From the NCBI RefSeq assembly GCF_964355755.1, contig NC_092674.1, forward strand, positions 25,260,001 through 25,324,000: a DNA stretch of 64,000 bases. Reading direction: 5' to 3'. Source of the stretch: Antedon mediterranea. Its lineage: Eukaryota; Echinodermata; Crinoidea; Comatulida; Antedonidae. The translations under genes were made by a program, and so were the position numbers. The notes under the pieces were generated by a model. That model was not told the origin of the DNA and did not search any database. It saw only the letters and a program-made list of their open reading frames with translations. Shown here piece by piece: positions 11,327-64,000 of this stretch. Each line of letters starts with the position of its first letter. The stretch's first letter is position 1.

Positions 11327-11516
11327 AAAAGATAAGCATATAGCGCATTGAGGAAAAGATACTCCTAAAGTCAAGGAAATTCAAAAGGAAATAAACAAGT
11401 GTATAAAAAATAGCAAACTGAAATACAAAAAAACACTAGAAAATAAATTTAAAGACAAAAATCCTAAAGCAGCATGGAAAGCAATTAAAACACTAACCGG
11501 CTACAAAGAAACCATA

Positions 11517-21000: not shown

Positions 21001-24000
21001 AGTTTACTTTCGTTTTCAACTACGCTTTTCAACCATAAAAATACTATAGTTGTCATTTTGTAATTAATGTGTGTTTATAACCGTTAAAATAAATTTGGAA
21101 CAACAATTAATTTGTTATTTATTAGGCCTAGTTGAAATAAAATATTCGTATTTGTGTTTCTTATGAAATATTTGAAAAGCAAAGGAAAAAAGAATGACAG
21201 AGTGATGATGAAAGAATACAGAGTAAAAAGCCACAGAGAATTTACAGATATAGACCATACCATTTAATAGTGGGGTTCAAATGGCATAATTGGCATAATT
21301 GTCAAAAATGTAGAGCTGTTGATCCACACCCATACATATGTCTCAGTGATTCATAAGATACAAACGGTAATGTCTAAACTTGCCCCAAGTCTTGTAGTAT
21401 AGGCTACGTATGAAACGACATATGTGCAAAAATATTTAACTATAAACTAATTTCGTGAATTATTTTTTATTTTAGCGTGTGAAGTTTTATACCCAGACGA
21501 CACCAATGTCCCAGATGAGGATTTATACTATGGAGCGGGATGTCGGCAAAAATGTAACTGTGCCAATGACGATTGTAATCGAAGTCCAAGCCTATCAAAT
21601 CAGGACGTAGGATGTGCTTCCGGGTCAACATTTTTAGCTGGTTTTACTGGAAACAAATGCCTAGGTATTATTAATTAATACATTAAAATAATAATACATA
21701 AATAATAAAACATAAATATAAAGCTTCACTATTCGGTATTTTGCGTAAGATTATCTAATTCCATTCCATCTTTGCTTCCTAAATAAGATTTCATAACTCG
21801 TGGCACGCGTTTAATACAATATAGACTATATAAACATCGCATGCAGTGTAAACTTTCACATCATTTAAAACCTAATGTGATTGCTGTCTATAGAAACAAA
21901 TCTGTCCAAATAGACGATATTTACTGATATTTACTCACCTAAACAATGCTTGACATTAAGTCGATTTGGTCAATTTCCAACACGTTTTTTTATTTTACTT
22001 TAGAAAATCAATTAATTATTAAAGTATTAAATACGTTTTGTTTGTACAGAGCCTACGTCATGTCCTTCTGGGTTCTTTGGTGTATTGTGTAACTTTCCAT
22101 GTCACTGCAAAGAATCTGAAAATTGTAATCGGGATGGGAGTTGTGTCAATGGATGTCATGAGGATTGGGCTGGACCAGACTGCAGCATAGGTAATAAACA
22201 CACTCTTGGAATTCTCTTGGAGCTATTTCTATATTTAAAACATGTCTACAATTTCATACAATGTAATGTGTGATTGGAGTTCCAAATGAAATAAAGAAAT
22301 GAAGATATGCCATGAGACTCTATGCGATGTTGTCAGAATGAATATTAATAGAGAGAAAACAATCGCAGTTATAGTAGGTCTAATGGTGGCCTTTGATTGT
22401 ATGATTGGTTTATTATGTAGAAGTGAAAAGCACTGCAATCTCAAAGGTAACGGTATGAGCAATGTAAACATCTGTTTTTTTTGGTAAGTGTACCCTAAGT
22501 AGGCCTAATGATTTTGTTCCTTAATAATTAGCATTACCGTACCGCTCTGAACCGCCAACTGTTGTAAACCAGACAGCAACTACTCTAACGTTTGACGTCA
22601 CTTGGATTCTCGGTGAAGACTATGGAACAGGAAGAATTACAAAACGGAAGCTTTCATATAAATCATCGCAAGTAGATTTGTTTATATCAGTAACTGAACC
22701 AGATGATGATGTATTTCTTGTTATTGATTATCTCATCCCAAATACGCAATATCAATTCTACTCTCAACTCTCAAGGAAGATTGGTGGTATCGAGGTAGAT
22801 GGACCAAGAAGTACGATTGGAACAACCAACACCATATGTACAAGTAAGTAGAATGTCTTTGGACAAATGTAGAATGTCACATTGTAGCAATCTATCTAAT
22901 CTATGTTAGCTTGCTGTAATGTTTTATCACACGCTGACTTATAATGTATTAAATTACGTATTATATAGAACCTTTGGAAGTACCCGAGATAGAATTGAAA
23001 GCAGTTGAAGACAATCGGGCCATCTTGAGTTTAAAGGTATGATTAGTAAACAGAAAACCAATATCGTATATTTTTAATTGCACAAACACAACACAACATG
23101 TCTTGGATCAATTAAACTTAATGTCATTGAGGCACTATTATTTTGATTTCTAAATTATATTCAGTCAGTTTCTAGTGAGTATGATCGAATCCAATGTAAC
23201 TCTATTCTTCGGTATCAAGTGCAATATTCGGACATAGATGGAAATGTACAAGGTATAATCAACACAACAAGCAGTACTCAATTGGAAGTTGAACTATCAG
23301 AATTGTCAAGCTGCACTAATTATGTCGTCAACGCTCGAGTTGTTAATAATCTGGATATTGCTGGTGATTGGGGACAGGAAATAACAGTACAAACAGCACC
23401 GAGTGGTTGGTTACAGTTATAACGTATAACAAAGTATTTCTAAAAAGTCTAATGTAATATTCACTAAGCATATATGATTTCTAACACTGCTCTGAAATAC
23501 TACTACAGTCTTAGTAGAGTAATTGGTTATTCTGTTTCCAAAAATAGCGCCGACAATAGAAGATAATCCATTCACAAATGGAACACATTTGCTGATAAAG
23601 TGGAAAGCTTCTACGTGTGACATCCTAGATTATCAGGTGACCTACGATTATGAACTGTCAGGTGATGGAATATTTCAAGAAGGAAAAACAACAGAAACTG
23701 AAGTTGTAATTGGTAATGGAATAGAATCATACAACCAATATACATTCACAGTATTAGCGTCATATTCAAATATTAATGGGACGTTGGACAGCAAGAAAGT
23801 TGTGTTTGGAACAGATTGTGCCAGCCAAGAAGACAACTCAAACCAGACCCAATGTGTGTAAAATCTTTCCTTATTTAGCTTTCTGATTTCGTCAAAAGCT
23901 TACACGTCGTTGAGAAAACACATACAATTGTGTCATTATATTTTTTAGGTTATGTAATAGGTTTTGTTATTGGCTCAATAATTTCGGCATTAATCACTGT

Positions 24001-24504
24001 TGCCATCATCTTAATATTACAACGGTAAAGTATGTTTCTATTGTTTAAATAAATTTATTAAATAATGACACAATAATTCAATAGAATTTGCAAGTAAAAT
24101 TCGAAAATGTAAACAAAATGTGTTTGGTTAATCTTTTTACCTTACCGACACCGAATTATATTTTTATTTTTCCATAACAGACCATTATTTTGCACAAATT
24201 GCTCACAAATTCCAATAACATACTTGATTCTTCACTGACCGATGAAATATAACACTCACACTTGACAAATTTTAGATTTCGTCGTAAACATTCAGAAAAT
24301 TAAAAGGACGTTGGTAAATCCTCCACTGCTCAACCCAATGTATGCACAATAGATACTGATTACCAAACATTGTCGAAAAAATTTGAAGAAAGTGAATATG
24401 AAGGAATTAAGCCTACCGATACTACTTCTTCTGCTGAACACGTTTACGCAAACCCCGAGCCACCAGTATCGGAACATGTTTATGGTAACACGATTGATAA
24501 ATGA
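18052..24504 (+). CDS. Receptor gene 1: Tie-like ectodomain, no phosphatase
   Basis: There are thirteen exons: 18052-18133, 18872-19252, 19387-19613, 20368-20502, 20591-20740, 21476-21664, 22050-22190, 22532-22843, 22969-23036, 23165-23405, 23548-23853, 23949-24024, 24276-24504. The order is signal peptide, cysteine-poor domain, Ig-like domain, four EGF-like modules, three FN3 domains, a transmembrane helix (about 23955-24015) and a short cytoplasmic tail with tyrosines (EYEGIKP, HVYANP, HVYGNT), ending IDK-stop. No PTP exons follow before gene 2 begins. There are two lesions. The Ig exon is 227 nt, against 243 and 249 in genes 2 and 3, so a 16-nt deletion shifts the frame to a TGA at about 19494. 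The tail has an in-frame TAA at 24301-24303. Skipping the Ig exon (phase 1-1) would restore the frame. It is either a pseudogene or a phosphatase-less decoy expressed by skipping. The donor after 23405 (GTTGGT) is weak. Confidence 0.8.
19387..19613 (+). pseudogene. Ig-like exon of gene 1 with 16-nt deletion
   Basis: The exon aligns with 27996-28238 and 53577-53825 but lacks 16 nt after AGAAAAGGT, removing the segment that holds the core tryptophan (LRWR in the paralogs). The downstream part (NIRMKDDGVYECYTGDSPDG) is intact only in the shifted frame. The splice borders are good on both sides. Confidence 0.85.
20368..22190 (+). CDS. EGF-like exons of gene 1
   Basis: Four phase 1-1 exons each encode one cysteine-rich module. 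The first has CYNGGRCDDKTGVCICPAGF, the classic EGF pattern. The second contains YPTDPIGCTCINGFGG, like the second EGF of Tie receptors. The third carries the CRQKCNCANDDCN pattern, but one cysteine near its end is replaced (STFLAGF where the paralogs have STCSSGF or SQCSPGY). The fourth has CHCKESENCNRDGSC. Confidence 0.8.
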
Positions 24505-26686: not shown

Positions 26687-26771
26687 ATGTTGGCTAAACG
26701 TTTTCCAAACTGTATCCGCCTGGTTATGGGCCTAGCCTTTTCTTCTTTGACGTTTCAATCCGGATTATCAG
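26687..26771 (+). CDS. Signal-peptide exon of gene 2
   Basis: Starting at ATG 26687, the peptide MLAKRFPNCIRLVMGLAFSS has a basic start and a hydrophobic core, followed by LTFQSGLSG. The same exon appears at 18052 and 48237, which supports the start choice. A nearby in-frame ATG at 26669 lies in a different context and is not conserved in the paralogs. Confidence 0.8.
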
Positions 26772-29700
26772 GTATGATACATAGTGTAATTGGCTTGTTT
26801 TTTGTCATGTCTTTTGTGGAATTATTGGTATACCTTAAGCGGACTTTTTTATTTCATTCTTTATTTTAGTCTTTTGTCCACCTTAATGTTTAATCTTCAT
26901 CATTCCCGAATATTTATAAACTATATTGCTTTATGAAACCATTTACCACATTTACGCAATGTTTACAGTTACACAATATAACAGACGTAATTCGTTGTCA
27001 CTAAATCATCTTAAACCTTTACACTATAATAATAATATTAAAATGTGTTTAGTCATTAATCCTACCTTTACTTAATATTCTGGTTTTCTCACGTCCTCAT
27101 CAAAAACATGCCAAGTATTTATTAACGGTTGGTTTTCAACTACATTTAACACCTTTTTTACAATTATTTTTATGTCTGTTATATTTTAACTTTATATTAG
27201 ACAGTTTCAAAAAATAGTAAGGCACAGGAAAACAGTACGATTGCAGATAGGCATACTGCAATACTTATTTGTTGAATATAATCCACAGGATATACCAATC
27301 CTACGCACACTCACTGTATCGATCAAATATCATTAGTCAATAAACTGTCTTTATGACTGTAAAGAATAATGCCTAGCCATGGAAGAACAGCTTTTTAAAA
27401 ATTAAAATTTACCAGATTGCAAACAGAATCATCCACATTACAATAGACAGAAGTTTACTACATATACTTTAAAGCAAGACAAGTTAAATAACTAAACACT
27501 ACTAACCACCATTGCTTGTAATCACTAAATATTGTTTTTTTATTTTATTTAGATCCATTAGATATAACAGTATATTCTGCAACACCATCTAGTAGTGAGT
27601 TTCGAGGATACGCGCTTAGAGAAGACAGAGACATTCGAGATTTGTCAGTTGGAATACTATACAAGAATATTCCCGGGAAAGACAACGTGACTTGGAATGA
27701 TATTGGTACAGTCAATGATGGAAGTACCATTTTTCCTGCAAATAGTTGGGTTTCATCTCGTTCATGGATGGATCTTTTCACGTATCTAGGTATTGCTAAC
27801 TTACAACCCCAGACAGATAGAGTTGGTGTATTTTCATTTGAAGCAAGGAAAGGTGAAGTAGTCACAAATTCAGCAATTGTATTGCTGTCTAATTCTGGTG
27901 AGTACAATAATGCCATGATGTATCTCATATCATTTTTAAATGGAAATGAAAATGTTTGTAACAGTTGGCACTTTATTGATGGTTTGTTAATACAGCTACT
28001 ATTGTCATGGAGTACAGAACGATAACCGTCGGTATTGGAGAGTCTGTCACTATCAATCTCAGTAAAGGTCTTAACGATTTACGCTGGAGACATAATTACG
28101 GTGATGAAATACACAATCTGAGAGGTAGTACGTCTATTGTGATTGATAACATACGGATGAAAGATGATGGCGTATATGAATGTTTTACAGATGATAGTCC
28201 GGATGGTAGCCATGGTATCATGAGACTTATTGTTAGATGTAAGTCATAATATCACTGTTTTTACAAAGTTATCATTTGACACAAAGAATTTTTTATAAAG
28301 AGCTATAAATTAAACGCCAGATCAAGATTTGTATTATGTAGGCCTACATAAATCCAAACTCATTTTTTGATGCGACTAAATAATAAATTTTTGCAGCTTG
28401 TCCCTCACCAAAATGGAATCCTCCGGATTGTGAAATGGACTGTCCCGTATGTTATAATGGCGGAGTGTGTGATGATAAGACCGGTGTCTGTATTTGCCCA
28501 GCAGGATTTGAAGGCACTTATTGTCTAGAAGGTAATGGCATGCAATGCATGCAGTAGAATAGTTTTGATGCCATACGATATGTTTAAATTCATTATAAAA
28601 AATGTGATTTACGTTAATTGGTGTTCAATAGTCGAAACTTTCACATGTGCTTTGATAAACACTGAAATAACCCCTTATTGTTAAACACCCTGTGATATTG
28701 TCCTCCAGGTACAATTTATGTTAACGACTTGAAATAAAATAATAGGTTTGTGATAACCATACGTAATAGGCCCCTATTGGAATGTATTCCGTTTCTAAGA
28801 TAAGAAAAGATAATAAGATTTATAAACGCATATCCAATCAAGGCTGAATTTATGTATACTGCCTGTTAATAGGCTGTGGAAATAACAACTGGGGTCGTAA
28901 GTGCGAAGTTGTGTGTGGCGGTAACAGATGCGGTGGAGCTTTATTATGTCCCCCGGATCCAGTTGGATGTGCATGCATCAATGGTTTTACTGGGAACGAT
29001 TGTAGAACAGGTTTGTAGCATGTAATTATAGTTACCACCTACAGTGGTAAGTTCGTCCACTCATTTTAGCTTACCTTCGTTTACTTTTTTTTTTCTTTTT
29101 TTCAAAAGTTATTCTCCCAACTATTTCTGCCATTGTTATTGTCCTTTTGACTTTGTGTTTTATAACCTTTTTAAAAATAAATTCTAACCTTTTATTTTGT
29201 AGGCCTATTTTTAACGCAACCACGATAATTGTTATTTAATTTTTTTATTTTTGTTGAAAAGCGATCTACAAATTAATCTTAATATTATGCAAATCTTTTC
29301 TCTACATTCATAACGTACAAACAAATGTGCTGTTACTATTTGAAATGGTGATTCTCTTGCGCATTAGGCCTATATGTCACAGTGAAATAAATTCATTAAA
29401 TTGAGTACACTCAATCTATCTAAATGTTTATGCATATGCCTATACATTTTATATGGGGATACAGTCGTTTTTTAAAGTTATACATGAAATTTTAAAAGTA
29501 ATCTAGAAAAGAACCCCATTTTGAAAAGAACCCCATCTTGATCATGGGCTTCTTTTCGAGGTGTTATGGTTTTACGGTATGACTTAGAAATCGCAACTGT
29601 GTACAGAGAACTATGCCTAATTCCTATTATCGATTCGATTGTTGTTGTTGTTGTTATTATTAGTAGACCAGGCCAAATTTTAGTTGTTGTTATTTGGCTA

Positions 29701-32700
29701 AAAATCAAAATAATGTTTCAATGGAATCATTTACTTCTTCTATGTTTTAACCTATTATGTTTTTAAGCGTGTACGGATTTATACCCAGACTCCGATGCCC
29801 CAGATGAGGATTTATACTATGGAGCAGATTGTCGGCAAAAATGTAACTGTGCCAATGACGATTGTAATCGAGGTATAAGCGATTCAGATATAAACATAGG
29901 ATGTGCTTCAACGTCAACATGTTCGTCTGGTTTCACTGGAGAAAAATGTCTAGGTAGTATGATAAGATTAAGTCTTATATAAGTATATAATGCATTGACT
30001 GTATGCTAATTATCTATGTGTTTAAAAAAAAAACATAGAAATAGTTCATTACTGACATACCCATGTAACCAATGTCTTAAATACACCGACTATCGGTCAA
30101 TAATAATTGCAAACACTTCGAAACTGTAAAGTAGTTAATATAATACCAATTATGCTCTGTTTATAAAGAGCCTACGTCATGTCAGTCTGGAATGTTTGGT
30201 GTTTTGTGTAACTTTCCATGTCACTGCAAAGACTCTGAAGATTGTAATCGAGATGGGAGTTGCGATAATGGATGTCACGAGGCTTGGACTGGAACAAACT
30301 GCAGCATAGGTAACACGCTAAATTAAGATAACCAAACAAAAAATACGTTCTACAATTAAAGCATCTACAAGAAAGCGACCAACTACACACATTTTCAATA
30401 TCAAAATTATTTAAAAAGAAACAATTGTTAACCCAATTGCACTTGCTGGTCCATCAACCTCAATATCACCAACCATCCTTGAAAAAAGACAGTATAATTA
30501 TATGTGAATGTAAAATGTATCATAACTTACTGTTATTAGTAGGCATAATGGTGCCCTTTCACTGTAAGCGTATATGTAAGGTGATACGATAGCAGAGAAT
30601 TGACATTATTGTTAAATATGTAATCATGATGCTTTTCATTTCTTTAATAATTAGCATTACCATACCTATCTGAACCGCCGACTGTTGTAAACCAGACAGC
30701 CACTACTCTAACGTTTGACGTCACTTGGATTCTTGGTGAAAACTATGGAACAGGAAGAATTACAAAACGGAAGCTTTCGTATAAATCATCGCAAATGGAT
30801 TTTATAACAGAAGAACAAGATAATAGTTTAATTGTTATTGATGATCTCATTCCAAATACAGAATATCAATTCTATTCTTATTTTTCGAGGATGGTTGGTG
30901 GTATTGAGGTTGATGGACCAGAAAGTACAATTGGGTTAACAAATACCATATGTACAAGTAAGCTAATATTACAGCATTGTTAAAATCATTTAAGTAAACT
31001 ACACAAAACTGACGCGTACAATAATCACCTAAGCAATTAGCAATTTCACGAAAATAATATTTATTTAATAAAGTAAAGATTAGAAATTGGCTTGATACAA
31101 CGTCAGACATTCTACCACATGACACCAGTGTCATGGGAACAATGTCAAATGTGAGGCGGTACTCTAACATTTAACGAAGATTATTCTGGACAAGTTTTTA
31201 CTCATCAGGATTGTTGGCCAATTGGTTGATACTGGACTATTTAAAATAATACACAATTTGTCTAAATAAGAAAGAAATTCCGAAATTGTATAAGAACAAT
31301 ACAGTAGTCTAGAGCATATTTCCTATGGATTTCAGTTCGTTTTTTTTTTTCGTATATTGTTTCTATTTTCTCAGTATTAAGCAAGTTGTATTACTTATAT
31401 CTCTTATAGAACCATTGGATGAACCTGAGATTGAATTGAAATCCATTGATGACAATCAGGCCACCTTGAGTTTAAAGGTATTTCAAAATATCTAGATTTA
31501 TTTTATATTGCAATAAATTGGGTTTCGTTTCTATGTTTTATAGAAATGTTTTGTAATGGCGGTTTAAATTGCATTATTTTAAATCAATATGACATTTTGC
31601 CCGTTCTACCTTTAATATTATATATTTATTTATATAATTTATTATATATTATTTTTAGTCGGTTTCTAGTGAGTATGATCGAATTCAATGTAACTATATT
31701 CTTCGATATCAAGTGCAATACTCGGACATAGATGGAAATGTACAAGATGTAATCAATACAACAAGTTCTCAATTACAAATTAAACTATCAGGATTATCAA
31801 GTTGTACTGCTTATGTCGTCAACGCTCGAGTTGTTAATAATTTAGACATTGCTGGTGATTGGGGACAAGACATAACAATACAAACAGCACCATCAGGTAA
31901 CTAAAATAACATAATCTTATTTTTTTGAAAGAATTTCATTTAGCTTCGATTTTGTATAGATGACAAATTTCGTTTTTGTAAAAGCACAAGTTAACGGAGT
32001 ACTTACTCGAACGTTTCGATCTCTATCAGAGATCCTTCTCAACTGACTGCGGAGTGTTAATGCAGCTTGGTCATTCTTGACGTCATCTGTTGACCACCTT
32101 CAAATTTAACCCCCAAAGAACGAAAGGCCATAAACAACTTGAAGAAAGATAAATCTATTCTTATTCTCCCAGCGGATAAAGGTAGATCTACTGTCATCCT
32201 AAATACTAATGATTACAAAGATAAAGTGGGAACCATGGTGAGCGACACTAATGTTTACGAACTGCTAAAACGTAATCCAACACAAAACTATAAACGAAAA
32301 GTGGTCAACATCATAGGCAGGTTGTTCAAAGAAAAGAAAATCAACTACAGAGAGAAAGAATGGCTGTTTCCCACGGCTGAAATTGTACCTAGGTTGTATT
32401 GTCTTCCGAAGATACATAAACCAAATTGGCCATTAAGACCTATAGTAGATAACATCAACACCGTTTTTTACACCGTTGCACAATTCCTCACCAAAATCCT
32501 GGGTCCGCTTGTCGGAAACACAGAACATCATGTAACTTACTCAGGAGAGTTGGCGAGTGAACTAAAAGAAATAATAGTCAAACCAAGTGAAACATTTGTC
32601 TCGTTTGACGTAGTATCTCTGTTTACAAAAACACCAGTAGAAGAGGCCCTCAAAGTTGTCGAAAATCGCCTAACAACAGATCCGACACTTCTGGATAGAA

Positions 32701-35700
32701 CTAAACTACATGTGACAGACATAATGGAGCTCCTCGGTTTAATTGTGAACAAAACCTATTTCTCGTTCAATGGTAACATTTATAGGCAAATACAAGGCAT
32801 TGCTATGGGAAGCCCAATAAGTCCTATATTGGCGAACTTGTATCTAGAGTGGCTCGAACATCAAGCCATAAACACGGCACCCACTAACATCAAGCCTGTG
32901 TATTGGAAACGATACGTTGATGATGTATTAGCTATCATCCCCATAGGTACAGTACATACATTTAACACACATCTTAATAACATCGATATAACTGACAATA
33001 TCAAGTTCACCACAGAATCGATGACAAACAACACAATACCTTTCCTGGACATGCTCATCACACTCAATGACAATGGAACAGTTACCACCTCAGTCTATCG
33101 GAAGCCCACTCACACAGACCAATATTTACATTTCAACTCACATCATCCACTCGAACACAAACTGGGGCTTATAAACACGCTTGTGGACAGAGCTGAGAAG
33201 GTAGTGGGAGATATGGATTTGAGGAAAGTTGAGATGGATAACATCAAGAAAGCGTTACACAACTGCCAGTATCCAGAGTGGTCCTTCCAGAGAGTTATGG
33301 AAAACCGAAAAAGGAAAAAGAACAAAGGACACGAACCACAGAAGGAAAAGATCAAGATGCGAGGTAGCATAGGAATCCCCTATGTAAAAGGAATGGCAGA
33401 AAGAATACGACGCACTCTCTCCTATCACAATGTCGGAACCTATTTCCTACCCCAAAATAAAATCAAGAATAGCCTCGTCCACCCAAAAGATAAAATCGAG
33501 AAGATGGATACATGTGGAGTAATCTACGAAGTCACCTGCCGCAACTGTCCACAAGTTTACATTGGGGAAACAGGGAGGGCATTACAAACACGAATCAATG
33601 ATCACAAAAAAGATGTTACAACAAACACGGGGGGAGTAATGACTAGGGCCTCCAGAACATCCACATCTTCGATCATACACAAATCTGCCATTACAGAACA
33701 TGTCATAAAACACAATCATGTACCGAACTGGGAGGCTACCATCTTAACCAAAGAGCCTAAACGCAAAGACAGACAGATTAGAGAATCATTACATATAAGG
33801 AGAAATAAAGAGAAGACCATGAACCGGGACACTGGAGCCCACGAACTCTCGCATTTGTACAATGATTTGATAGACACATCACCTGGCCGAGCCCCGCACA
33901 ACCTCCAACCTACAACCGGAGGCGTACAACGTCATCAACAGATGACGTCAAGAATGACCAAGCTGCATTAACACTCCGCAGTCAGTTGAGAAGGATCTCT
34001 GATAGAGATCGAAACGTTCGAGTAAGTACTCCGTTAACTTGTGCTTTTACAAAAACGAAATTTGTCATCTATATAATCTTATTTATTTATATAACATCTT
34101 TATATAGGATTACATAATCAGGTAAAAGAAAACCAGTTTTTCATTGTGATACTGTCTTAAATGCAAAATAAATCAAGGGAAAATGTTTAGTTTTGTGAAA
34201 AAAAAAGATGAGCTTGATATCTAGCTTTGAATGAAAAAGTATTGTTAGGGAATATTTAATTTCAGTTGGTAGGTTTTTCCATATTTTACCGCCTGCAACT
34301 TTGAATGACAAGTTCATTTTATTAGTAAATACAAAAGAAAACTTAAACTAAATGAACCCTACAACTGTACATAAACATTTTATCACTATAGAAAATAGAA
34401 ATACTCTATGCAAAGCTTAATAATGCATATGAAATACTTCTCCATTCATAATCAATTTTGGTGTCAAAGGCATTCCGTAGATTGGCATTTGGAAACAAGA
34501 ACTATAGTGTACTACACTCATTAAAAAGGTTCAAATATAAAAATATTTCAGTATGGTGTAAAAATATATCTCTAATCCTACCTCTATCCTAATCAGCTAA
34601 TTTTTCTGGCTGTTTTATTTTTATCGTTTTTATTTTTCTTTTTGCTTATTTAATTTGAATCCAGTTAAGATAAAGTCACTGATACCTACAGAATTTGTTC
34701 AGTAATTTGCCTTTAGATTTATATATTATTATATATTATATAAGTCAAAGTCAAAGTTAGAATATAGTATAAGTATAAAAATATTTACATTATTTATTAC
34801 ATTTTACACATTGTTATTTGTGTTGCAACACCAGAGCCGTCGATAGAAAGTAATCCATTCAGAAATGGAACACATTTACAGATGACATGGAAAGCTTCTA
34901 CGTGTGACATAACCGATTATAATGTGACCTACCATTACGAACTGTCAGATGATGGAATATTTCAGCAAGGGATTACAACAGAAACTGAAGTTGTATTTGG
35001 AGGAATAGAGTCATGTAAAGAATATCTATTCACAGTAATGGCGTCATATTTGAATGTTACTGGGACATCTGACACAATACAAATTATGGTTGAATCCGGT
35101 TGTGACAACCCTAGCAACTCGGACCAGAAAGAGGAAGAAGGTTTGCAAAATAAAAAATGTTCTTCCTTGTTTTTCTTTTGGTATCTACTTAGTATAAGTT
35201 CTTAAAAGAAAGACAAATATCTTATCTCAATGAAGATAACATAGTGTGATTGCTTAAAGAAAAGATTGGTGTTTCTATATTCTACTATTAACAAAACAAA
35301 TGTTGAGGTAAAAATGTAAAACAATTCTCGTTTGCAATAATTGTAGGCTCTATTCATTCATAGATCTTAGCCCAACTCGTATGGTGGTCACTACATTCCT
35401 ACAATATAATACATTGCTGCATAGTCTATGTTCTCATTTCCCTGATCTAGCTGTCATGTTGACAAACTTTCAGCTTATATTATATTTTATTTGGTTATAC
35501 CCTTATATTTAAAAAATTACTATTACTGTCATGGATATAGGCCTGATTAAGTTGTTTACTAACAGCATCGAAGAGTTTACCACTAACAGTATCCGCATTA
35601 CTTCTATTATTATTGAATAATAAATGGAATACGTATCTGTAATTTCAGAATCTGGATCACCAATAGGTGTTATAATTGGCTGCCTGGTTCCTGCATTGTT

Positions 35701-38700
35701 GGTACTCGTTCTTGTGCTAATAGTAATTAAACGGTAATATGTGTTTGATATAAATTAGCATTAGGTTTTTCATATATAATAATATGATTGGTGTTTTTAT
35801 TGTTCAGTCTTCTTTTTACGATCTCAGACAGAATCAATATTGAATTAGCGTCTCTTTTTTTAGGCGTAGAAGCAACAAAGGTAATCCTACTGGTTTATCA
35901 AGCCATGCCGTGTCCATCGGTGGTGTGTCTCGTAAAACAAAACAAGAGCAAGATATTGGAGGTAAGTTACTGATTGTAGAGGGACGAGGGAAGTAGGATT
36001 CAAGTAAGTAGTATACAGTATTCATGTATAGGCCAAAGTTGATAGTATTCTTTCTATAAAGAGAACTTACTTTTTAATACATATGATTTTATTCACTCGT
36101 AATATGGCCTCCTTTACGTATAAAGACAGTGCTTTTGAGGAAGTAAGGGGTGCCTATGATAACGTGGGGGGTGCCAGAAACTCTTCAAAGAAATCAGTAC
36201 ACGCTGAAGCTGATGCCGAATATCAACCTGATTTTGATATTGACCAGGAACCCATGTATGGCAACACGCAATTGGAAAATCAAGAATACAAACCAATCGA
36301 GTTATCCAAACTGCATGACTATGTGATGAAGCGTCAAATAAGTGTCGAAAGTGGCTTTGAGAAAGAGTTTGAGGTGCGTTAAAAAGCATTATATTGGTAT
36401 TTACACTCTAACTATAATTAATATTAATCAGTTTAAAACAAAAAATACTTTTCAAACTGCTTGAATTGACACAGGTATAATATATTGTTAGTGCATGTAT
36501 TAAATCCAGGATTCCAGGACAAAAAAAATAATGTTTCCTCATTTCCTTCTTTCGTCGCACAAGCCTTTATCTGCGTTAAACCATTACTTTAACCGTGAAC
36601 ACTTACTCCGTCAGTTTAAGCACGTTTCTTTTTTATATCTAAAGGATCTTGGCAACAAGCCCTTATTCCCCAGCACAGTCGCAAAGTCATCAATAAATAG
36701 GAAGAAAAATCGATATGCGAACGTAATTCCATGTAAGTTAATAATATTTTTTTTTTTGTATCATATATACTATTTATAGTTAATGCATTAATTTTTGGAA
36801 AGATATGTCTTTCTAAAAAGTGTAGTAAAAAGAAGTAATAATGCTTGATTTCATGTACATCTAAATTCCATGCTGAACCTTTTTCCTAAAGTTATTGCTT
36901 AATGAATTAATATTTTAATTCAATTTAGATGACAACACCCGTGTGGTTCTTGACAAGATTGAAAATGTCCCAGGATCCGATTACATTAATGCTTCGTATC
37001 TAGATGTAAGTTAAAAAATGTGCATACCTTTATGTTGAAATGATCAAATTATTAATACAAAAAAATGCTGTTCTGCAAAGAGTATGGTTGAAAGGAAGTC
37101 ATGGCTCTCGGTAGGGAATTCAGTACGAAGAGGGTTACACGACCAGACATAATTATAATTAATAAGAAGCTAATTTACGACAACGTTTAAATATTATTTT
37201 TGTAGTTATGATATCCTATTACTATAATGTTTAATACTTGTTCGTGTAATGGATAAAAGCTGTTTAAAAATATGAAGTTGTACTTTTTCAGGGATATACA
37301 ATACCACGTGAGTTTATCGCATGCCAAGGTAAGCTTTAATTCATATATTACAAATGTATTATCCTTCTTAGTAGAATTTTCCTTGGTGTTTGTATTGTTT
37401 AACTTATTATTTTTAATTTCCAGGACCAAATGTGGCTTCAGTCAACGATATGTGGAGAATGGTCTGGAAAGAGAAGTGTCGAGTGATTGTCGTAGTTACG
37501 AATCTTGTTGAAGGAAACCGAGTAAGGCCTACTATCGTTTTCTAGTATTTGACAGTGCGAAGGTGTCAGTGATAAAAAAGTGTTTTACTGAATACTATAA
37601 AACAATCCATATATTTGCTTGAACAAAGGTTAATATTGTTATTTCTGGCATGTCAGTAAAATGAAAAATGTGTGTCCTTACAGTATAACCCAATTTGTTT
37701 GTTTGTGTAAGTTCCGTATAATTATATGTGGTTAGCTAAATAAAACACACACATATTATTAGAGAGGTTTCGCAATCTTACGAATACGATAACGAAAACG
37801 GATACGTCACGCACACGTATTCGTTTTCGTAAGCCATAAAACAATCTGTTTCGCATGGCAACGAAATATTGAGGCGCGTCCAAAATATGACTGCGGTAAA
37901 TTTGAGCGAAGCGCAGGTACGTGTTGCTTTGTGCTTGGCTGCCTAGGCCTAGCGTAACATCAAAGCGAGTGAGGACTTTAAAAACTATCAAAATTGACTT
38001 GACATTTTAGTAAATTACTTTAGTAAATTACTTTCAATAAATCTATAATTATATTATAATCATGAATCATTCCTGATTCAAATGCAAAATGTGCAAAATA
38101 GATCAAAAACTATACTCGTTTTGTAGTTACGAATATGACTGGTGATATTCGTCAACACGAATACGCTTTACGAATATAAAATGGGGATCAGCTCAAAAGT
38201 TTCACAAATGTATGACGTATCCGTTTTCGTTATCGTATTCGTAAGGTTGCGAAACCTTCCTATTATAATACGGAACAGGTTCGGTTGTATTCGTTTATGT
38301 ATTGTCATATTTTATTTTTCAGAAAAAATGCGAACAATACTGGCCTGACTTGAACAATAGACAGGAATATGCAGAAATATCTGTAACAAATGCTCGTGAA
38401 ACTAACTACGGGCATTATGTGACCCGAATTTTTCAAGTTCAAAAGGTAAAATGCGATAACAGATAGGTTCCTATTTCTTCTACTGATTTTAATACATTTT
38501 ATTTGGAAAAATGTTTTGTTTATTTCTTACTTCAGATTGTATTTTTGTTACTTCATTGCATGCAATAAACCAACTTATTCTATTCTTTAAACGTATATTA
38601 GGCTATGAACTGTTGAACTGTTGACAGTATTAAGCGTTCGTTCCAGTAGGACGTAACGCAAGGACGAAACGCAACACAAGCGTGTTGACCAATGACAAGT

Positions 38701-41700
38701 GTCAGTTTGAATAATCCATCGCTTGTCATTGGTCAACTTACTTACGTTGCGTTACGTCCTTGTGTTGCGTCTCTAGTGGGAACCAAGCTTTAGGCCTAAT
38801 CCGGCGCATCCGACGCATAAGTAATTTATCAAACGTCTAATGGTCTATCTATATGATCTATCTATATAGTTTATAGTGTAACTGTTTTTTTTTAAATGAT
38901 AAAAATCGTTCTGTTTTAATCTTGAAGGTAGAAGATGAAGACAGTATATATAACGTATACCAGTATCATTTCACCGAATGGCCCGACAAGAGTGTTTCCA
39001 ATGCCGTTCCGCAGTTAATCAACTTTATCCAAACGTTTAGAAAAACTCAGCAGAAGTTTTCTAGCAACAGTGTACCAGTTATTGTACATTGCAGGTAATA
39101 TAATCATAATAATACTTTCCACAACAAAATGAGAGAAACTTGTTGAAAAAAACGTTTGTCTGAATTAACAGCCAAGAGTGTTCATTCAGTTCATCATTAA
39201 GATTGATTTATGTATGTTTTACAAAGGTAGCTCTATCAGCTCTACTACAGCAGTACAGCTGACTTGTAGAGGCCCCCTTAAAAGCAGCAATACGAAAATA
39301 TACAAACAAATGATGTTGTGCAATTATTTTAGAAGAATAAAAGACACTTAGCTAGTGAAACAGTTTGTAGAGGAGAAACTATGAAATTATATTCAAACTA
39401 AATTGAGATCTAACCACAAATTTGACTCCTTTTTTTACATTTTTGGTAATATTCAAAATATGTTAGTGCTGGAGCTGGTAGGACGGGAACTGTGATCGCC
39501 ATTGCAGCCATGTTGGATATGTCAAAAGATCAAGGCAAAGTGGATGTGTTCAATTTTGTACGGAATATGAGGCAGAACCGTATTCAAATGGTTCAAACAG
39601 AGGTTAGTCAAATCAGTTATTTCATTTGATTATGTCTATAGATATTAAATTCGTAATTAAGTATACTTAATTACGAATTTAATGTGTAGTGCCATATGAC
39701 AAAATGTCCTACTGCATTTTGTTTATATTGATTGCTTAAGGTATTTTTGGTACTTTTTACCGCCTGCAATAAACTTTTTTCGTGAACAATCACTTAGTCT
39801 AGTAACATTTCGTCATTTGGCACACGAAAACACACAGATCCGCTTATGGCTTTATTAGTAAACAATTCAATTGCATTACTATTTTTAGGAACAATATAAG
39901 TTCATCTATGCCGTTATACTTGAAGAGTTGTTTTGTGGAGAGACTGTGATTCCTGTAAATGATTTACAAAACGAAATACAAAGACAGGCTCAACACACTC
40001 CATCGAGTTTTGATTATCAACTCAAAGTGAGCATCATGATTTTTTGTTGTTGAATATAATATATTGTATAACACAAATAAACTTAAATATAGAAGCACTT
40101 CCTCTTTAACTGTTAGTACAGTTTGCAAATGCTACCATAAATAATAATAATACAAAATAAATGATGGACAATTAATTTTGTGTTGAAAAATGTACCTGAA
40201 ACTCGTATACAACCGTTACACAATTACGTGTTACCAATTTAAAAAACAAACAACTATGGGAGATTATTATGATCTGATCTATTGTATTGTATTGTATTGT
40301 GTGAAACAATAAACTTGAATCCGCACTCTATCAACGAATTAGATGACAATTGACGGTCTACTTTTGTAACCCGTCACTACACTGTGTCTACTGGGAGCAA
40401 TCTTGTGCGATATCATGAATGGACATTTGCTGTGATTTTCTTCTAACCGAACACACTTAATTTGTATATTTTCAGACGTTGAACTGTCTGTTTCCCCTTC
40501 CCGTTGATGATCTTACTTCACACGCACGACAACCTGAGAACGTTTCCAAGAACAGATTCTATGACGTGGTTCCACGTAAGTAGTTTTTGTGGTTGACAAG
40601 AAAAAAAGTGTTAGTCGAGTTTTGCTGATAAAACAAAGCACTGATAAAACCTGATATTATTCAGAAGTTTGTATTCAGAAGTCATGTATTATTATCTCAT
40701 TAAACGTTATCATCAATTTCTACATCAACACGAGCTATACATCTTCTTCATCGTGACAGGATATTTTCAGAATGCATTTGCGAGTAGAGAACCTTCGTCA
40801 ACCGAGTTCTGATTGGTCAGTTTACCAATACTATTAATGTCGGTTACCAAACGGAAAGTTTAGAAATGTCATTTCTTTTCGGTTTTTTTTTGCAGTTAAT
40901 AGAGCTCGTCCATTGTTAATGTCACCATCCGACCGTGGCACTGATTATATCAATGCATCTTTCTGTAACGTAAGAAAACTATATTCTATTTTTAAGCGTA
41001 GAATTTTAATACCATAATAAGCTATTCATCGTATTATCCGCATTAGATCTTCCAAGAATGTTATTTAGTTTTCTAAGTTTTTATTGTCAGGTTCACAAGA
41101 AACCCAACGCGTACATTGTGACACAGGCTCCATTGGCTAAGCCAGCTAATACTGCTGAGGACTTTTGGCGTCTGGTGTTTGACTATAAATCTGAAGTCAT
41201 TGTGCAACTGAATGACAAAGACCAAACCTGTGCCGCCTACCTTCATAAGCAAATAAAGCAGCCAATAAAATTCGGGCAATTTACTGTTACTGTTGTATCA
41301 GTGGTTAAGAAAGAATTTATGATTGAAAGAAAAATATCACTAGAAAATGTAGGTTTTTGTTACTGATATATTGATATTGTTACTGGATTTCGATTTTATT
41401 TGTTACAATAACCACATATGAATTGTTGACGAATTATAATGATCTTCGTGGTACACGTTTTACGATTTATACAGATAATAATTATTTATATCAGAAAAAA
41501 CAAAATTCACAGTCATACTTACTTGTGTGTTTCTTCTTAGGATAACAACGTACGGGAAATTGTTCACTTCGAGTTTAGACAATGGCCAAATGGGAAGAAC
41601 GTTCCCGACGTTGATCCGTTTGTGAGGTTCATCACAAACATTGGAGAGGGAACTTTGTCTAAAAATAAACCAATCATCGTTCACTGCCTGTAAGTACACA

Positions 41701-42640
41701 TCGTATTATCTAATGCTGTTTTTATTTTGAGTTAGAAAAGGATAATGCAGAGTCCTATATTAAGACACCTTTGGAATCGTAACAACATGGGGTCCCCTTA
41801 ACAATACGGTATTTAGTCCCAATGAGTTGGTTGTAGTACGCTCCTCAGTCGCTTCGCGGAAAACTTTCCCCATAATAGGAATATCTCAAATACTGTAAAT
41901 GAGTAGGTTAATTATTCAAATGAAATGTATAGGCCTAAAGACATATAATAAATAATAACAAATTGGAGTTATTTCAAAATAGGAAAAACCCACGAACTGA
42001 AAAACGCATTCTGAAATTCAAAACTGTATTTCATTTCTAAAACCACGTTTTTGTTTTACTATAATTATTTCATTTTTATAAAAGGGATGGAGTTTGTAGA
42101 TCTGGATTGTTCTGTCTAATTCATTCAATGATCGAGAAAATGAGAGAAGACAAGGTGGTGGATGTATTCCAAGCACTTAAAACGTTTCGTTCAACGTGCC
42201 CTACAATGCTGAAAACCAAGGTACTGTATCGTATTTTGTTTATGCTATTTCTACACTTTATACTACAAAACAGAAAAAAAAATAGTCTTTAATTCACCAT
42301 TAATCACCATTGTTGTTAATATATTGAAAACTAAATCTTTTATTGTAAAATATCCTAATTATCTTTTGGTCATGTCTGGTTACAGACTTTGATGATAATT
42401 GGTCTACAAGAGTTTGAAAGAACTTGTCGTTGAAGTGAGCTGTTGCTTGTGTAGAGAGATAATGTCAAACGTTGAAAGCCATGACTTCTATTCTTCTTAT
42501 TTTCACCTTCATTATTGTGTTGCCAAAACTTTTTTTTACTTTTAATGATTCTTATTTTAATTGCATAGGTTCAGTACAATTTCTGTTATGATGCAGCCAA
42601 ATGCTATGTGCAGAATTACCAAGAATATGTCAATGTTTAA
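26687..42640 (+). CDS. Receptor gene 2: Tie-like ectodomain fused to tandem PTP domains
   Basis: Twenty-eight exons join in frame to about 1423 residues: 26687-26771, 27553-27897, 27996-28238, 28397-28531, 28873-29010, 29768-29953, 30169-30309, 30655-30957, 31410-31477, 31659-31896, 34835-35140, 35649-35733, 35864-35961, 36126-36373, 36645-36732, 36929-37005, 37292-37328, 37424-37521, 38323-38445, 38928-39094, 39467-39602, 39889-40026, 40476-40575, 40896-40969, 41091-41348, 41541-41689, 42085-42220, 42569-42640. Layout: signal peptide 1-28, cysteine-poor domain 29-143, Ig 144-224, EGF x4 225-424, FN3 x3 425-729, TM about 732-757, juxtamembrane to about 873, PTP D1 and D2. It should be a type I membrane receptor that removes phosphate from phosphotyrosine. 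The ectodomain order matches Tie1/Tie2 kinases; the catalytic part does not. No lesion is seen. Introns hold a Penelope element and MITEs. Confidence 0.88.
27553..28238 (+). CDS. N-terminal cysteine-poor and Ig-like exons of gene 2
   Basis: Exon 27553-27897 encodes 115 residues with no cysteine; it has FRGYALREDRDIRDLSVGIL and DRVGVFSFEARKGEV. The latter resembles the last strands of the first Ig domain of Tie2, without the cysteines. Exon 27996-28238 encodes an Ig-like domain (VGIGESVTINL, then LRWR, then MKDDGVYECF) that runs into MRLIVR just before the first EGF module, as in Tie receptors. Only one of the usual two Ig cysteines is evident. Confidence 0.75.
28397..30309 (+). CDS. EGF-like block of gene 2 (four exons)
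   Basis: Each exon is symmetrical (phase 1-1) and encodes one module. Module 1: CPVCYNGGVCDDKTGVCICP. Module 2: CGNNNWGRKC and PPDPVGCACINGFTGNDC. Module 3: GADCRQKCNCANDDCN to CSSGFTGEKC. Module 4: CHCKDSEDCNRDGSC to WTGTNCS. Known Tie1/Tie2 receptors carry three EGF modules here, with the same PDP-x-GC-x-C feature in the second. Here there are four. Confidence 0.82.
30655..35140 (+). CDS. Three FN3 domains of gene 2
   Basis: FN3-1 is one exon (30655-30957), with FDVTWILGENYGTG and LIPNTEYQFY. FN3-2 is split over 31410-31477 and 31659-31896, with YVVNARVVNNLDIAGDW, close to the second FN3 of Tie2 (YVVRARV then GEWSEDL). FN3-3 is one exon (34835-35140), with TCDITDYNVTYHYELSDDG. The intron between FN3-2 and FN3-3 carries the Penelope insertion. 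Confidence 0.82.
31923..34072 (+). mobile_element. Penelope-like element with inverted terminal repeats
   Basis: The insertion lies in the intron between FN3-2 and FN3-3 of gene 2. A 12-bp direct repeat, ATAATCTTATTT, flanks it (31911-31922 and 34073-34084). The paralogous intron of gene 3 (60438-61044) is empty. The ends carry 138-bp inverted repeats (31956-32093 and 33935-34072) that match base for base by eye. The left end has an extra stretch of about 33 bp outside the repeat; asymmetric short extensions are known in Penelope. It is in the same orientation as the host gene. Confidence 0.9.
32103..33971 (+). CDS. Penelope RT with GIY-YIG endonuclease, 5'-truncated
   Basis: The frame is open from about 32103 (just after a stop) without an early ATG, so the N terminus is missing. 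Residue numbers count from 32139. It begins in the RT fingers (ILPADKGRSTVIL), then LPKIHKPNWPLRPI, FVSFDVVSLFT (catalytic Asp), GIAMGSPISPILAN, YVDD at 32913-32924 (residue 259) and FLDMLI. A GIY-YIG-type nuclease with GVIYEVTC (about residue 460) and VYIGETGR follows. The 3' end of the ORF runs into the right inverted repeat. The order RT then GIY-YIG identifies Penelope-like elements. No internal frameshift is seen. Confidence 0.9.
   Translation, partial: NLTPKERKAINNLKKDKSILILPADKGRSTVILNTNDYKDKVGTMVSDTNVYELLKRNPTQNYKRKVVNIIGRLFKEKKINYREKEWLFPTAEIVPRLYCLPKIHKPNWPLRPIVDNINTVFYTVAQFLTKILGPLVGNTEHHVTYSGELASELKEIIVKPSETFVSFDVVSLFTKTPVEEALKVVENRLTTDPTLLDRTKLHVTDIMELLGLIVNKTYFSFNGNIYRQIQGIAMGSPISPILANLYLEWLEHQAINTAPTNIKPVYWKRYVDDVLAIIPIGTVHTFNTHLNNIDITDNIKFTTESMTNNTIPFLDMLITLNDNGTVTTSVYRKPTHTDQYLHFNSHHPLEHKLGLINTLVDRAEKVVGDMDLRKVEMDNIKKALHNCQYPEWSFQRVMENRKRKKNKGHEPQKEKIKMRGSIGIPYVKGMAERIRRTLSYHNVGTYFLPQNKIKNSLVHPKDKIEKMDTCGVIYEVTCRNCPQVYIGETGRALQTRINDHKKDVTTNTGGVMTRASRTSTSSIIHKSAITEHVIKHNHVPNWEATILTKEPKRKDRQIRESLHIRRNKEKTMNRDTGAHELSHLYNDLIDTSPGRAPHNLQPTTGGVQRHQQMTSRMTKLH
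35649..36373 (+). CDS. Transmembrane and juxtamembrane exons of gene 2
   Basis: The TM helix IGVIIGCLVPALLVLVLVLI is followed by the stop-transfer KRRRSNKG. Exon 36126-36373 is acidic and tyrosine-rich: EVRGAYDNV, EPMYGNTQLENQEYKP and KLHDYVMKRQ. These are plausible phosphotyrosine/SH2-type sites. The chosen acceptor (ATAAAG before 36126) keeps the frame; the upstream AG gives a stop. Confidence 0.78.
36645..40026 (+). CDS. PTP domain D1 of gene 2 (active-type)
   Basis: The exons 36645-36732 through 39889-40026 encode one PTP domain. It has the substrate-recognition loop KKNRYANVIPY, GSDYINASYLD, the WPD loop (FTEWPDKS), the catalytic HCSAGAGRTG with Cys about 1069 and Arg six residues on, and the Q-loop region MVQTEEQYKF. 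All residues known to be needed for catalysis (Cys, Arg, WPD Asp, Gln) are visible, so it should be an active cysteine phosphatase. The only change in the signature is Ala where Val is usual. Confidence 0.88.
37765..38257. mobile_element. MITE with 44-bp terminal inverted repeats
   Basis: It lies in an intron of gene 2 (37522-38322). The left arm 37765-37808 (AGGTTTCGCAATCTTACGAA onward) is the reverse complement of 38214-38257 apart from scattered mismatches. The interior has no transposase. It ends 65 bp before the exon at 38323. The superfamily was not identified. Confidence 0.75.
38632..38791. mobile_element. Short foldback MITE, copy 1
   Basis: About 160 bp form a long hairpin: TTGACCAATGACAAG pairs with CTTGTCATTGGTCAA, and GGACGTAACGCAAGGAC pairs with a copy near 38745-38765. 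It lies in an intron of gene 2. A diverged relative is at about 42725-42880. Confidence 0.7.
39644..39683. repeat. Perfect 40-bp palindrome
   Basis: Each arm is 20 bp with no spacer (ATTAAATTCGTAATTAAGTA and its exact reverse complement), in the intron after the exon carrying the P-loop of D1. It could extrude a cruciform or be the relic of a foldback element. Confidence 0.85.
40476..42640 (+). CDS. PTP domain D2 of gene 2 (pseudo-phosphatase-type)
   Basis: Exons 40476-40575 to 42569-42640 encode a second PTP domain: SKNRFYDVVP, GTDYINASFCN, NAYIVTQAPL, WPN in place of WPD, and HCLDGVCRSG in place of HCSAG.GRTG. Cys about 1354 and the Arg are kept, but the general acid Asp and the Ser-Ala of the P-loop are changed. 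The C-terminal helix VQYNFCYDAAKCYV is typical of D2. Such D2 domains are usually inactive and regulatory. Confidence 0.85.
42386..42433 (+). CDS. Possible alternative last exon of gene 2
   Basis: After a good acceptor (GGTTACAG) the frame reads TLMIIGLQEFERTCR and a TGA, in phase with exon 42085-42220. Its use would replace the canonical D2 C-terminal helix encoded at 42569-42640. It may be a chance frame. Confidence 0.3.
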   Translation, partial: TLMIIGLQEFERTCR

Positions 42641-48236: not shown

Positions 48237-51200
48237 ATGTTGGCTAAATGTTTTCCAAACTGCATTCGCCTGTTTATAGGCCTAGCTTTCTCGTCATTGA
48301 CGTTTCAATCCGGGTCATCAGGTATGCTACATAGGGTTAGTTTTCTAGACCTAAAAACGTTTCCTCGTCGACCGTATCCTTTTCCTCTTATTTTGTTATT
48401 GTTCAGTCTTTTCACTTCTTATAACCGCTGTTTAAATTTCATTAAACTTGTTTTTCCCCTTTTAGATGTCTGTTTGAATGTGTTTTAAACATTATTTTTG
48501 GTTACTAAATTTTCCTATCTTTGTAATTGCAAAGAAACAGAGTTTCAATGTAGTGATCTAATTCACGTAAGCGATAGACTATATTTCACTGAATCGAGGG
48601 TGGTACTAGAAATAGGATAGAGGTACTGGAAAACAGCACAATAGCAGATACTGTATAAGTCGGTCATTTAGGCCTATAAACACGTACATACCAATTAAAA
48701 CACTACTTTCCTCTATGACTCACTGTGCAAACAATTAAGTGAAAATCTGTAACTTTTCGTACGCTGTGTGGTAAACATTGTGTTGGCGAGTAGACGTGCA
48801 GAACTTCCGCACACAAGCTCGCGTCTCACCCGTCATCACCAGTGTGTTCGCCACTCTGTGCGTCCTTGAGCAAGTACGTGTATAGGCCAACTTGTGAGTG
48901 GCGTACGAGCGAGAACAATATTTAAAGCGGGAGCTAATATAATATACGAAAATGTTTGCATAATCAGAATATTCGTTAGTTAGAAATATTCAAATATTCA
49001 AAGTAAAAAGTAACTTCACAGGACTACAAAGGTAATAATATCAAACTCGAGAAAATAGACCGTACCATCATTTACTCGCCGTTTTTACGAGATTAACCTA
49101 GTTGCAGTAAAGTGACTGAATGTAATAAAGTAACCATAACTTTTTTTTATAGATCCATTAGATATAACATGTTTTTCTGCCACACCACTGACGACATCTA
49201 ACACTAATAGTTGGTTTCGAGGATACGCACGTTACGGAGACATTCGAGAGTTATCCGTTTCAGTTTTAAACAAGAACATTGATGGGAAAGACAACGTGAC
49301 TTGGGATGATACTGGCCATTCAGTTGGGAATATAAAGCGTCAAGCGATAGATATGCCAGACGGTAAAGTATTTCACACAAATAGCAGAATTTTATACCGA
49401 GTAAGCGATGCTTTCAGGTATCTAGGTGTTGAAAGACTACAGCAGACTGAGAGAGTTGGTGTATTTTCATTTCAAGCAAAGAGAGACGAAGTAGTCGCAC
49501 ATTCAGCTATTGTATTGACATCCACTTCTGGTGAGTAATTCGGTAATGACTTTAAATATCTATAATAGAAGAGGGAAGTTTACGTTTGTTCATTAAACAA
49601 ATGTTTCCTTTTTTGCGTTGGTATTAGGCCTACAGTTGATATTTCAACAACACTTGAAACAGAAAAGAAAAAAATTACCAGTATAGGCCTACAAAATGAT
49701 ATTCTGAATCTTGAACGGTATTCAAGGAGTTTTTACAAATGTACAAACTTTCAACAATTAGTTGTCAATAGTCATGCAGATGATTAACAAAGAAAATAAG
49801 CTAGCATACATTACTGGTGATATGAACTTAGACATTAGCCAACACATGAGAGACAAAAACATCGAATCCCACCTTGACAATATCCAGTCCCAGTCCTTCA
49901 CTTTTCTTATTAATAAGCCCACAAGAATAACAGAAAACTCTGCTTCCATAATAGATAATATTCTCTACAATTCCCATCTAACAAATAACATAAACACTGG
50001 TATCATATATTCGGATATATCCGACCACCTTCCAATGTTCTGCATAAACACATCCGAAACTCACCATTATCATAACAACGTATACTGTTATAAACGCGAA
50101 AACAAACAGTATCAACATTGATCATTTTAAGCATGAACTTGCAAATCAACAATGGCAGGATGTCCTAGAATCAAATGACGCAAACAAAGCATATCAACAT
50201 TTTTCCACAACTCTGCAATCATTAGTTAATATATGCTTTCCAATAAAAAAGATAAAACTCAAAGCTAATAAACTTCAATCTCCTTGGATAACGGAATCAA
50301 TTGCTAAGTCAATTGTTACTAGAAACAAATTATATAGCAAATACAAACGTAGACCGACAAACATAAATAAATCTAAATATACAAACTATAGAAACGTACT
50401 TACCAATATTATTAGAAAACGAAAAAAGGAATACTATTTTAATAAATTTGAAAAAAATAAAAATAATATGAAGAAACGTGGAATGCCATTAATCAACTTT
50501 TAGGTAGGAAGAAAAAATCCAAACTGCCATCAAACCTAAAACATGTGACAGAGACATACACTAACCCAGAAACAAAATCCGATGCATTCAATTCTTACTT
50601 TATTAATATTGGGAAACAATTAGCTGACAAAATTAACCATGATAACAACCCTGCCATTGATCCAACGTCATATTTGACTGGTAACTACCTTAATTCTATG
50701 TATTTCAGACCCACAACAGAATACAAAATAATGACATACATTAATAAATTAGAAACAGATAAAACACCAGGTCACGATGATATCAGTGCTCACTATATCA
50801 AGTACAATTCCGTCTACCTTACAAAACCTATTTCACACTTAATAAACGTTTCACTCGCCACTGGCCGATTCCCTGATGAACTAAAATGTGCCAAAACTAT
50901 ACCTGTTTTTAAAAGTGGCGATAGGCAAAACCTTAATAATTATCGACCCATATCAATCTTACCATGTCTTTCTAAAATATATGAAAGAGTTGTCTACGAC
51001 CAAACCATTTCATACCTTAATAAATACAACATAATAAATCAATCTCAATATGGATTCCGACAAAAACATTCAACTGCACATGCTCTACTACACACACTAG
51101 AAAAAATAACATCAGCAATTGATAACAACTCATTCATTATAGGTGTTTTCCTAGATCTGTCGAAAGCTTTCGATACGATCGATCATAGAATTCTAATCAA

Positions 51201-63815: not shown

Positions 63816-64000
63816 GTAAGGCCTATAATTTTCTAGTATGTTTGACAGTGCGAAGGTGTCAGTGATACAAATTATGAAATATGCATAGGTATTAATGATA
63901 CTGACACTGAATAAAGTCTAAATAAATCGTTTATTTTACGCAACTCCGACCGCCGGTAGGATTATTCCAACAAACAAACAAATTAAGTGTGTTACTGAAT
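63816..64000 (+). other. Intron of gene 3 at window edge
   Basis: The donor GTAAGG at 63816 opens an intron that corresponds to 37522-38322 of gene 2. The visible part does not contain the MITE arm found at 37765. Confidence 0.6.

Follow-up and report, generated by a model that had tools for sequence, protein, structure and literature searches.

A predicted receptor tyrosine phosphatase with a Tie-type ectodomain in the crinoid Antedon mediterranea

Gene 2 and its neighbors

The window analyzed here is a stretch of 64,000 nucleotides from the crinoid Antedon mediterranea (contig NC_092674.1, positions 25,260,001 to 25,324,000; C5:25260001-25324000 in our genome search), and all positions given below refer to it. 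Seven genes with a common ectodomain lie in 164 kb around this window, of which A, 2, and 3 contain exons for protein tyrosine phosphatase (PTP) domains and B, C, D, and 1 do not. Gene 2 very probably encodes a single-pass receptor PTP (RPTP), whose extracellular part is a true relative of the ligand-binding arm of Tie receptors, followed by a fourth EGF module, three fibronectin type III (FN3) modules, and a tandem of PTP domains (Table 1).

On the plus strand, gene 2 extends from an ATG at 26687 to a TAA at 42638-42640. Its 28 exons, the number given in an initial annotation, form one open frame, which encodes 1423 amino acids; the exons were spliced by hand from the sequence and then checked by script, which found GT..AG borders at all introns and consistent phases throughout. 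The splice named in that annotation as diagnostic, from 35733 to 36126, passes over an in-frame exon at 35864-35961. Ectodomain exons 2-8 and 11 are in phase 1 at both ends, and FN3-2 is divided between exons 9 and 10 in phase 0. In the spliced protein, Pfam recognizes two Y_phosphatase stretches (441 bits) and three fn3 domains, while EGF_2 and immunoglobulin (Ig) matches stay below the cut-offs. When modules are scanned singly, those of Ig and FN3 type and most EGFs also score below them. The annotated join of the ectodomain to tandem PTP domains is thus borne out by both the spliced frame and Pfam. A database protein of the same species, P0001, matches gene 2 over its full length at 73% identity, and every module has a counterpart in Anneissia P0002, so that gene 2 is more than a chance assembly.

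A separate ectodomain gene and phosphatase gene could in principle have been wrongly joined, since four of the local paralogues lack PTP exons and three of these four possess a separate exon for a membrane helix. We consider such an error very unlikely, because the exon phases are compatible across the junction, local genes A and 3 have the identical order, and the identical join recurs in database models of two crinoids, sea cucumbers, and urchins.

Table 1. Features of gene 2 and of the flanking paralogues in the window.
Feature	Position	Strand	Basis or remark
Exon 1: ATG and signal peptide	26687..26771	+	spliced frame; 65-86% matches in five of the six local paralogues
Exon 2: Ig1-like domain, at Tie2 Ig1 position	27553..27897	+	fold match of paralogue model
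Exon 3: Ig2, ends MRLIVR	27996..28238	+	Tie2 Ig2 alignment; Pfam ig 8e-4, below cut-off
Exon 4: EGF1	28397..28531	+	domain scan, Tie2 alignment, database matches
Exon 5: EGF2 with PPDPVGCAC	28873..29010	+	Tie2 alignment, database matches
Exon 6: EGF3	29768..29953	+	spliced frame; Pfam EGF-like match below cut-off
Exon 7: EGF4, at place of Tie Ig3	30169..30309	+	spliced frame; Pfam below cut-off
Exon 8: FN3-1	30655..30957	+	Pfam
Exons 9-10: FN3-2 with YVVNARV and GDW	31410..31896 (31410-31477, 31659-31896)	+	Pfam, spliced frame
Exon 11: FN3-3	34835..35140	+	Pfam, spliced frame
Exon 12: transmembrane helix	35649..35733	+	spliced frame, hydropathy
Exons 13-14: juxtamembrane stretch with Tyr residues	35864..36373 (35864-35961, 36126-36373)	+	spliced frame
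Exons 15-22: PTP D1, WPD and HCSAGAGRTG	36645..40026	+	spliced frame, Pfam, motifs
Exons 23-28: PTP D2, WPN and HCLDGVCRSG, then stop	40476..42640	+	spliced frame, motifs
Gene 1: Tie-type ectodomain, membrane helix, Tyr-motif tail, stop before any PTP	18052..24504	+	
Gene 3: Tie-type RPTP paralogue	48237..64000	+	extends 4.7 kb past window

The Tie-type arm and its ligand face

The Tie-type nature of the arm is supported by sequence, profile, and fold, the last on a paralogue: a model of P0005 matches Tie2 from residue 28 and residue 23 onward, respectively. The marks on which the initial annotation had based its proposal of Tie kinship are all present, namely MRLIVR running into EGF1, PPDPVGCAC in EGF2, and YVVNARV followed by GDW in FN3-2, and the whole-arm sequence score agrees with them. 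The order of modules needed revision. Gene 2 has the Ig1-Ig2-EGF1-EGF2-EGF3 arm of Tie and, as annotated, three FN3 modules ahead of the membrane, but two Ig modules rather than one and four EGFs, and no third Ig between the EGFs and FN3; at this place, exon 7 is an EGF continuing into FN3-1.

The second Ig module depends on reading exon 2 as a separate domain, Ig1, which the modeled fold suggests. This exon has no Pfam match, and in profile comparisons it does not match vertebrate Tie Ig1 (0.08%), while echinoderm and amphioxus kinases give 21.7% over 25 columns. For FN3, the profile comparison favors Tie (96.6%) over two blocks of LAR (65.6 and 53.7%), all cut at fixed positions, and the fold comparison does not. 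The structure-search lists consist mostly of FN3 rows, and absences in them carry no meaning.

An ectodomain of the EGF-array (MEGF) type that is Tie-like in appearance only would account for the 48% match of EGF1 to MEGF6. Such an array would lack the Ig2-EGF1-EGF2 arm, which gene 2 contains, and both the whole-arm score and the fold single out Tie; we therefore reject this explanation and assign it practically no probability.

The initial annotation further suggested that the ligand-binding face of angiopoietin receptors is retained. According to PMC8294587, both angiopoietins bind Tie2 via Phe161-Glu169 in Ig2, and replacement of Phe161 or Pro166 by alanine leaves half-maximal binding not measurable. 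When gene 2 is aligned to these published Tie2 residues, it has Glu in place of Phe161, Leu in place of Val165, and gaps at Pro166 and His168-Glu169, and only Ile162 and His163 are identical. The contact motif is thus not retained and an angiopoietin face is not supported; the ligand of gene 2 is probably not a vertebrate-like angiopoietin. The corresponding loop is also short in brittle-star and amphioxus kinases, which suggests that vertebrate-style angiopoietin binding may have arisen late. Alternatively, gene 2 might be related to Tie and have kept the binding of angiopoietin-like ligands, with one ligand engaging kinases and phosphatases in different receptors. The paralogue model, in which the arm fold is the same, and the retained Ile162 and His163 would fit this idea, which is nonetheless unlikely given the Glu at Phe161 and the gap at Pro166, where alanine abolishes measurable half-maximal binding in Tie2, the gaps at His168-Glu169, and the short loop of the brittle-star and amphioxus kinases as well.

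Phosphatase domains and exchange of tails

Instead of the cytoplasmic tyrosine kinase of Tie, gene 2 contains a PTP D1-D2 tandem behind one membrane helix (approximately residues 735-757 by hydropathy). D1 has KNRY, WPD, and HCSAGAGRTG, in accordance with the HCxxGxGRTG signature of RPTPs, and D2 has WPN and HCLDGVCRSG. By established knowledge of PTP catalytic motifs, these differences predict that D1 should be active and D2 is probably inactive.

Against single-domain PDB chains, D1 scores highest with PTPRK (250 bits), PTPRT (241), PTPRM (227), and PTPRA (222), followed by PTPRE (212), a delta chain (6kip, 206), PTPRU (203), and 2nv5 (203), which we take to be D1 of LAR type; two-domain LAR-type chains exceed 400 bits because both domains add to the score. 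In a D1 tree of 45 rows, built without R2B references, LAR is separate (support 99) and the seven crinoid Tie-type D1s are joined (support 100). Of 36 rows labeled Tie-type, 33 group together, and the other three (one from Apostichopus, two from Ptychodera) fall on long branches with sponge sequences, so that a single origin of the Tie-type D1 is neither shown nor excluded. These labels include P0123 and P0125, which are called Tie-RPTP but have no arm in their models, and P0052, whose arm reaches only 42 bits. The two Ptychodera proteins have one weak PTP stretch each, in which the catalytic motif is absent.

By database searches and labeling, the Tie-type arm is joined to a phosphatase in crinoids, holothurians, echinoids, Acanthaster, Ptychodera (degenerate), and Tachypleus, whereas it is joined to a kinase in starfish, Amphiura, Branchiostoma, and vertebrates. 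The arm set comprised 80 rows (79 of 239 proteins, the others having been dropped by hand, plus gene 2), of which 32 were labeled PTP, 21 kinase, and 27 neither; P0008 (no stretch above 30 bits) and P0011 (36 amino acids) owe their PTP label to fragments only. Among the 16 crinoid rows, seven are labeled PTP (two by fragments), nine neither, and none kinase.

PTP and kinase labels are intermixed in the arm tree, both with the 80 rows and with 44 of them chosen by hand. In the tree of 44 rows, the Acanthaster phosphatase P0088 lies within a clade that holds eight starfish kinases (100/99). Two phosphatases of urchins, P0096 and P0102, group with kinases of starfish and brittle star (100/97). 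A topology with all phosphatase arms on one side was rejected by an approximately unbiased (AU) test on 38 rows, all enzyme-labeled (p 8e-76); two of the three groups tested were named after the tree was known, whereas the phosphatase/kinase split had been set before. Provided that the public gene models are correct, these placements and this rejection mean that the tails have been exchanged more than once. More broadly, and with less than even confidence, we propose that the Tie-type arm originated early in animals as a sensor module and was swapped repeatedly among kinase, phosphatase, and enzyme-less receptors. With no kinase among the 16 crinoid rows, it would have gone over to phosphatases in crinoids, where the signal read by Tie kinases in vertebrates would be read by a multigene phosphatase family.

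Individual relatives vary further. Eight sea-cucumber proteins (P0050, P0052, P0055, P0056, P0058, P0059, P0061, and P0066) lack the catalytic arginine in their first PTP stretch (e.g., HCSNGSGAS, HCRDGSGST) and are candidate pseudophosphatases, while the motif is intact in P0054, P0060, and P0063. P0096 additionally carries PF00059, presumably a C-type lectin domain, and P0010 and P0062 have two arms. Tie-type arms also occur on Holothuria leucospilota P0080 (arm score 174 bits), whose annotation is that of an adhesion G-protein coupled receptor, and on Branchiostoma lanceolatum P0116 (173 bits), annotated as PKDREJ. Chelicerate arms are found in P0024 (Ixodes persulcatus) and P0118 (Tachypleus tridentatus), the latter with an intact PTP motif and PF03815, which we take to be LCCL.

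A clustered family and its possible role

Across the genome searched (354 Mb, 18 contigs), at least 79 Tie-arm units were found, in clusters, and at least 25 of them are followed by a PTP exon that has the same orientation, lies within 30 kb, and precedes the next arm unit. Both counts are lower bounds, drawn from 150 of 165 and 142 of 153 matches, with units merged by a distance rule. The fusion gene that the initial annotation took as single is therefore not unique, having this many siblings and relatives in other phyla. Among the kinase places listed, for which 133 of 772 candidates were scored, none is closer than 60 kb to a listed Tie-arm place. A phosphatase gene of the cluster matches Antedon mediterranea P0003 at 97-100% identity in four aligned pieces and at 81-93% in another three.

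Among the local genes without PTP exons, B, C, and gene 1 have a membrane-helix exon of different make, and in gene D none could be made out. In gene 1, the frame of the Ig2 exon is broken near 19457 and a stop codon takes the place at which a phosphatase part would follow, which makes the gene a candidate pseudogene or tail-only receptor. Its tail is open after the helix and contains the tyrosine motifs DYQTL, SEYEGI, HVYANPE, and HVYGNTI.

Sequences of mobile elements lie within and beside these genes. A Penelope-like open frame (32094-33971; reverse transcriptase, with GIY-YIG below cut-off) lies in intron 10 of gene 2, in an element at 31952-34076, and is flanked by inverted repeats of 149 nt that are 97% complementary. 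A Ty3-like element of the long terminal repeat type with open gag-like and pol frames (1891-7565) is situated upstream of gene 1, and endonuclease/reverse transcriptase frames of the LINE type occur at 10667-12977 and at 50048-52269, the latter inside gene 3, where it separates the Ig1 exon from the Ig2 exon.

The pooled ratio of nonsynonymous to synonymous divergence (dN/dS) over the seven paralogues, calculated from tblastn pieces with only one to three pairs for the juxtamembrane and PTP exons, is highest within the ectodomain in Ig1 (0.54), EGF2 (0.52), and EGF3 (0.56). It reaches 1 in no module, and positive selection on Ig1 was not found. Two values were set aside: that of D1c, which rests on one saturated pair of perhaps unlike exons (proportion of synonymous differences, pS, 0.73), and a ratio of 1.50 in one juxtamembrane exon with very few changes, from a comparison of genes 2 and 3 that extends as far as D1b. 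Between these two genes, pS in D1a is 0.04, which led us to consider gene conversion of the phosphatase half, yet similarity across the aligned blocks of this region, with the exons counted in, is only 80-92%.

Taken as a whole, the best explanation for gene 2 is a Tie-arm RPTP that arose by exon shuffling and acts in signaling, to which we give a probability of about 0.8. The Tie-type arm, EGF4, and the three FN3 modules would have been joined to an RPTP by shuffling, which fits the phase-1 borders of most modules. The signaling scheme itself is more tentative, at somewhat less than even odds. The arm may bind a ligand or a neighboring cell, so that receptors cluster or are spaced out, with the stem setting the spacing; D1 would then dephosphorylate tyrosines on other proteins assembled at that contact, be they kinases, adaptors, or the tails of siblings, and a single recognition module could thereby produce signals of both signs. 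Such opposing or paired signaling is plausible because some siblings have no enzyme and relatives in other echinoderms have kinase tails.

The same array could alternatively represent a recognition family, immune or self/non-self, of many tandem receptors that share one arm, some with and some without phosphatase tails, and act as paired receptors, for example on coelomocytes. The clustering and number of arm units, the local mixture of three genes with and four without PTP exons, and the ectodomain maxima of dN/dS in Ig1, EGF2, and EGF3 would suit this possibility, as would the Tie-2-like kinase and the receptor phosphatase, named F-like, that PMC13409769 places on starfish coelomocytes, which makes these cells a place to look. 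With every pooled dN/dS below 1, we hold the odds to be somewhat against it, and retain the Tie-arm RPTP in signaling as the preferred explanation.

With one recognition module present on both kinases and phosphatases, among related animals and in a single tree, the specificity of the arm would be separable from the sign of the signal, and the occurrence of the arm on phosphatases in Ambulacraria and a chelicerate changes the picture of Tie evolution. Database names show the phosphatase half, the Tie half, or neither (uncharacterized), so that a name search misses the family. Our literature search found no description of a Tie-type ectodomain on a phosphatase; a 2006 sea-urchin phosphatase survey outside its coverage may list members. 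The combination is likewise without mention in the available excerpts of PMC10815196, PMC5336234, PMC11310086, PMC9270726, PMC10855541, PMC13409769, PMC13162719, and PMC8294587. According to PMC10815196, Tie-2 of vertebrates is among the substrates of VE-PTP, a receptor phosphatase distinct from it, and a Tie-1-like kinase is listed for an urchin in PMC10855541.

Compared with known systems, gene 2 shares Ig and FN3 modules and D1-D2 with LAR-type (R2A) RPTPs, which form a separate D1 clade and have no Tie arm. The R2B receptors PTPRK, PTPRM, and PTPRT resemble it in the single helix, the D1-D2 tandem, and the best single-domain D1 scores; they carry a MAM domain, whereas gene 2 has none among its Pfam matches and a Tie-type arm instead. 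Starfish Tie-like kinases have a Tie-type arm but a kinase tail; the sea-urchin SpTie1/2, judging from the title of a reference, would likewise have a kinase tail. The arm-PTP combination itself is found in urchin and sea-cucumber proteins such as P0018, P0062, P0096, and P0102, which databases annotate as RPTP kappa-, mu-, T-, or alpha-like or leave uncharacterized, and these differ in EGF and FN3 numbers, with the catalytic arginine lacking in some. Tie1 and Tie2 (TEK) share with gene 2 the five-module arm, RLIVR running into EGF1, DPxGC in EGF2, and three FN3 modules, whereas in gene 2 the kinase is replaced by a PTP tandem and Ig3 by EGF4, and the angiopoietin contact motif is not kept.
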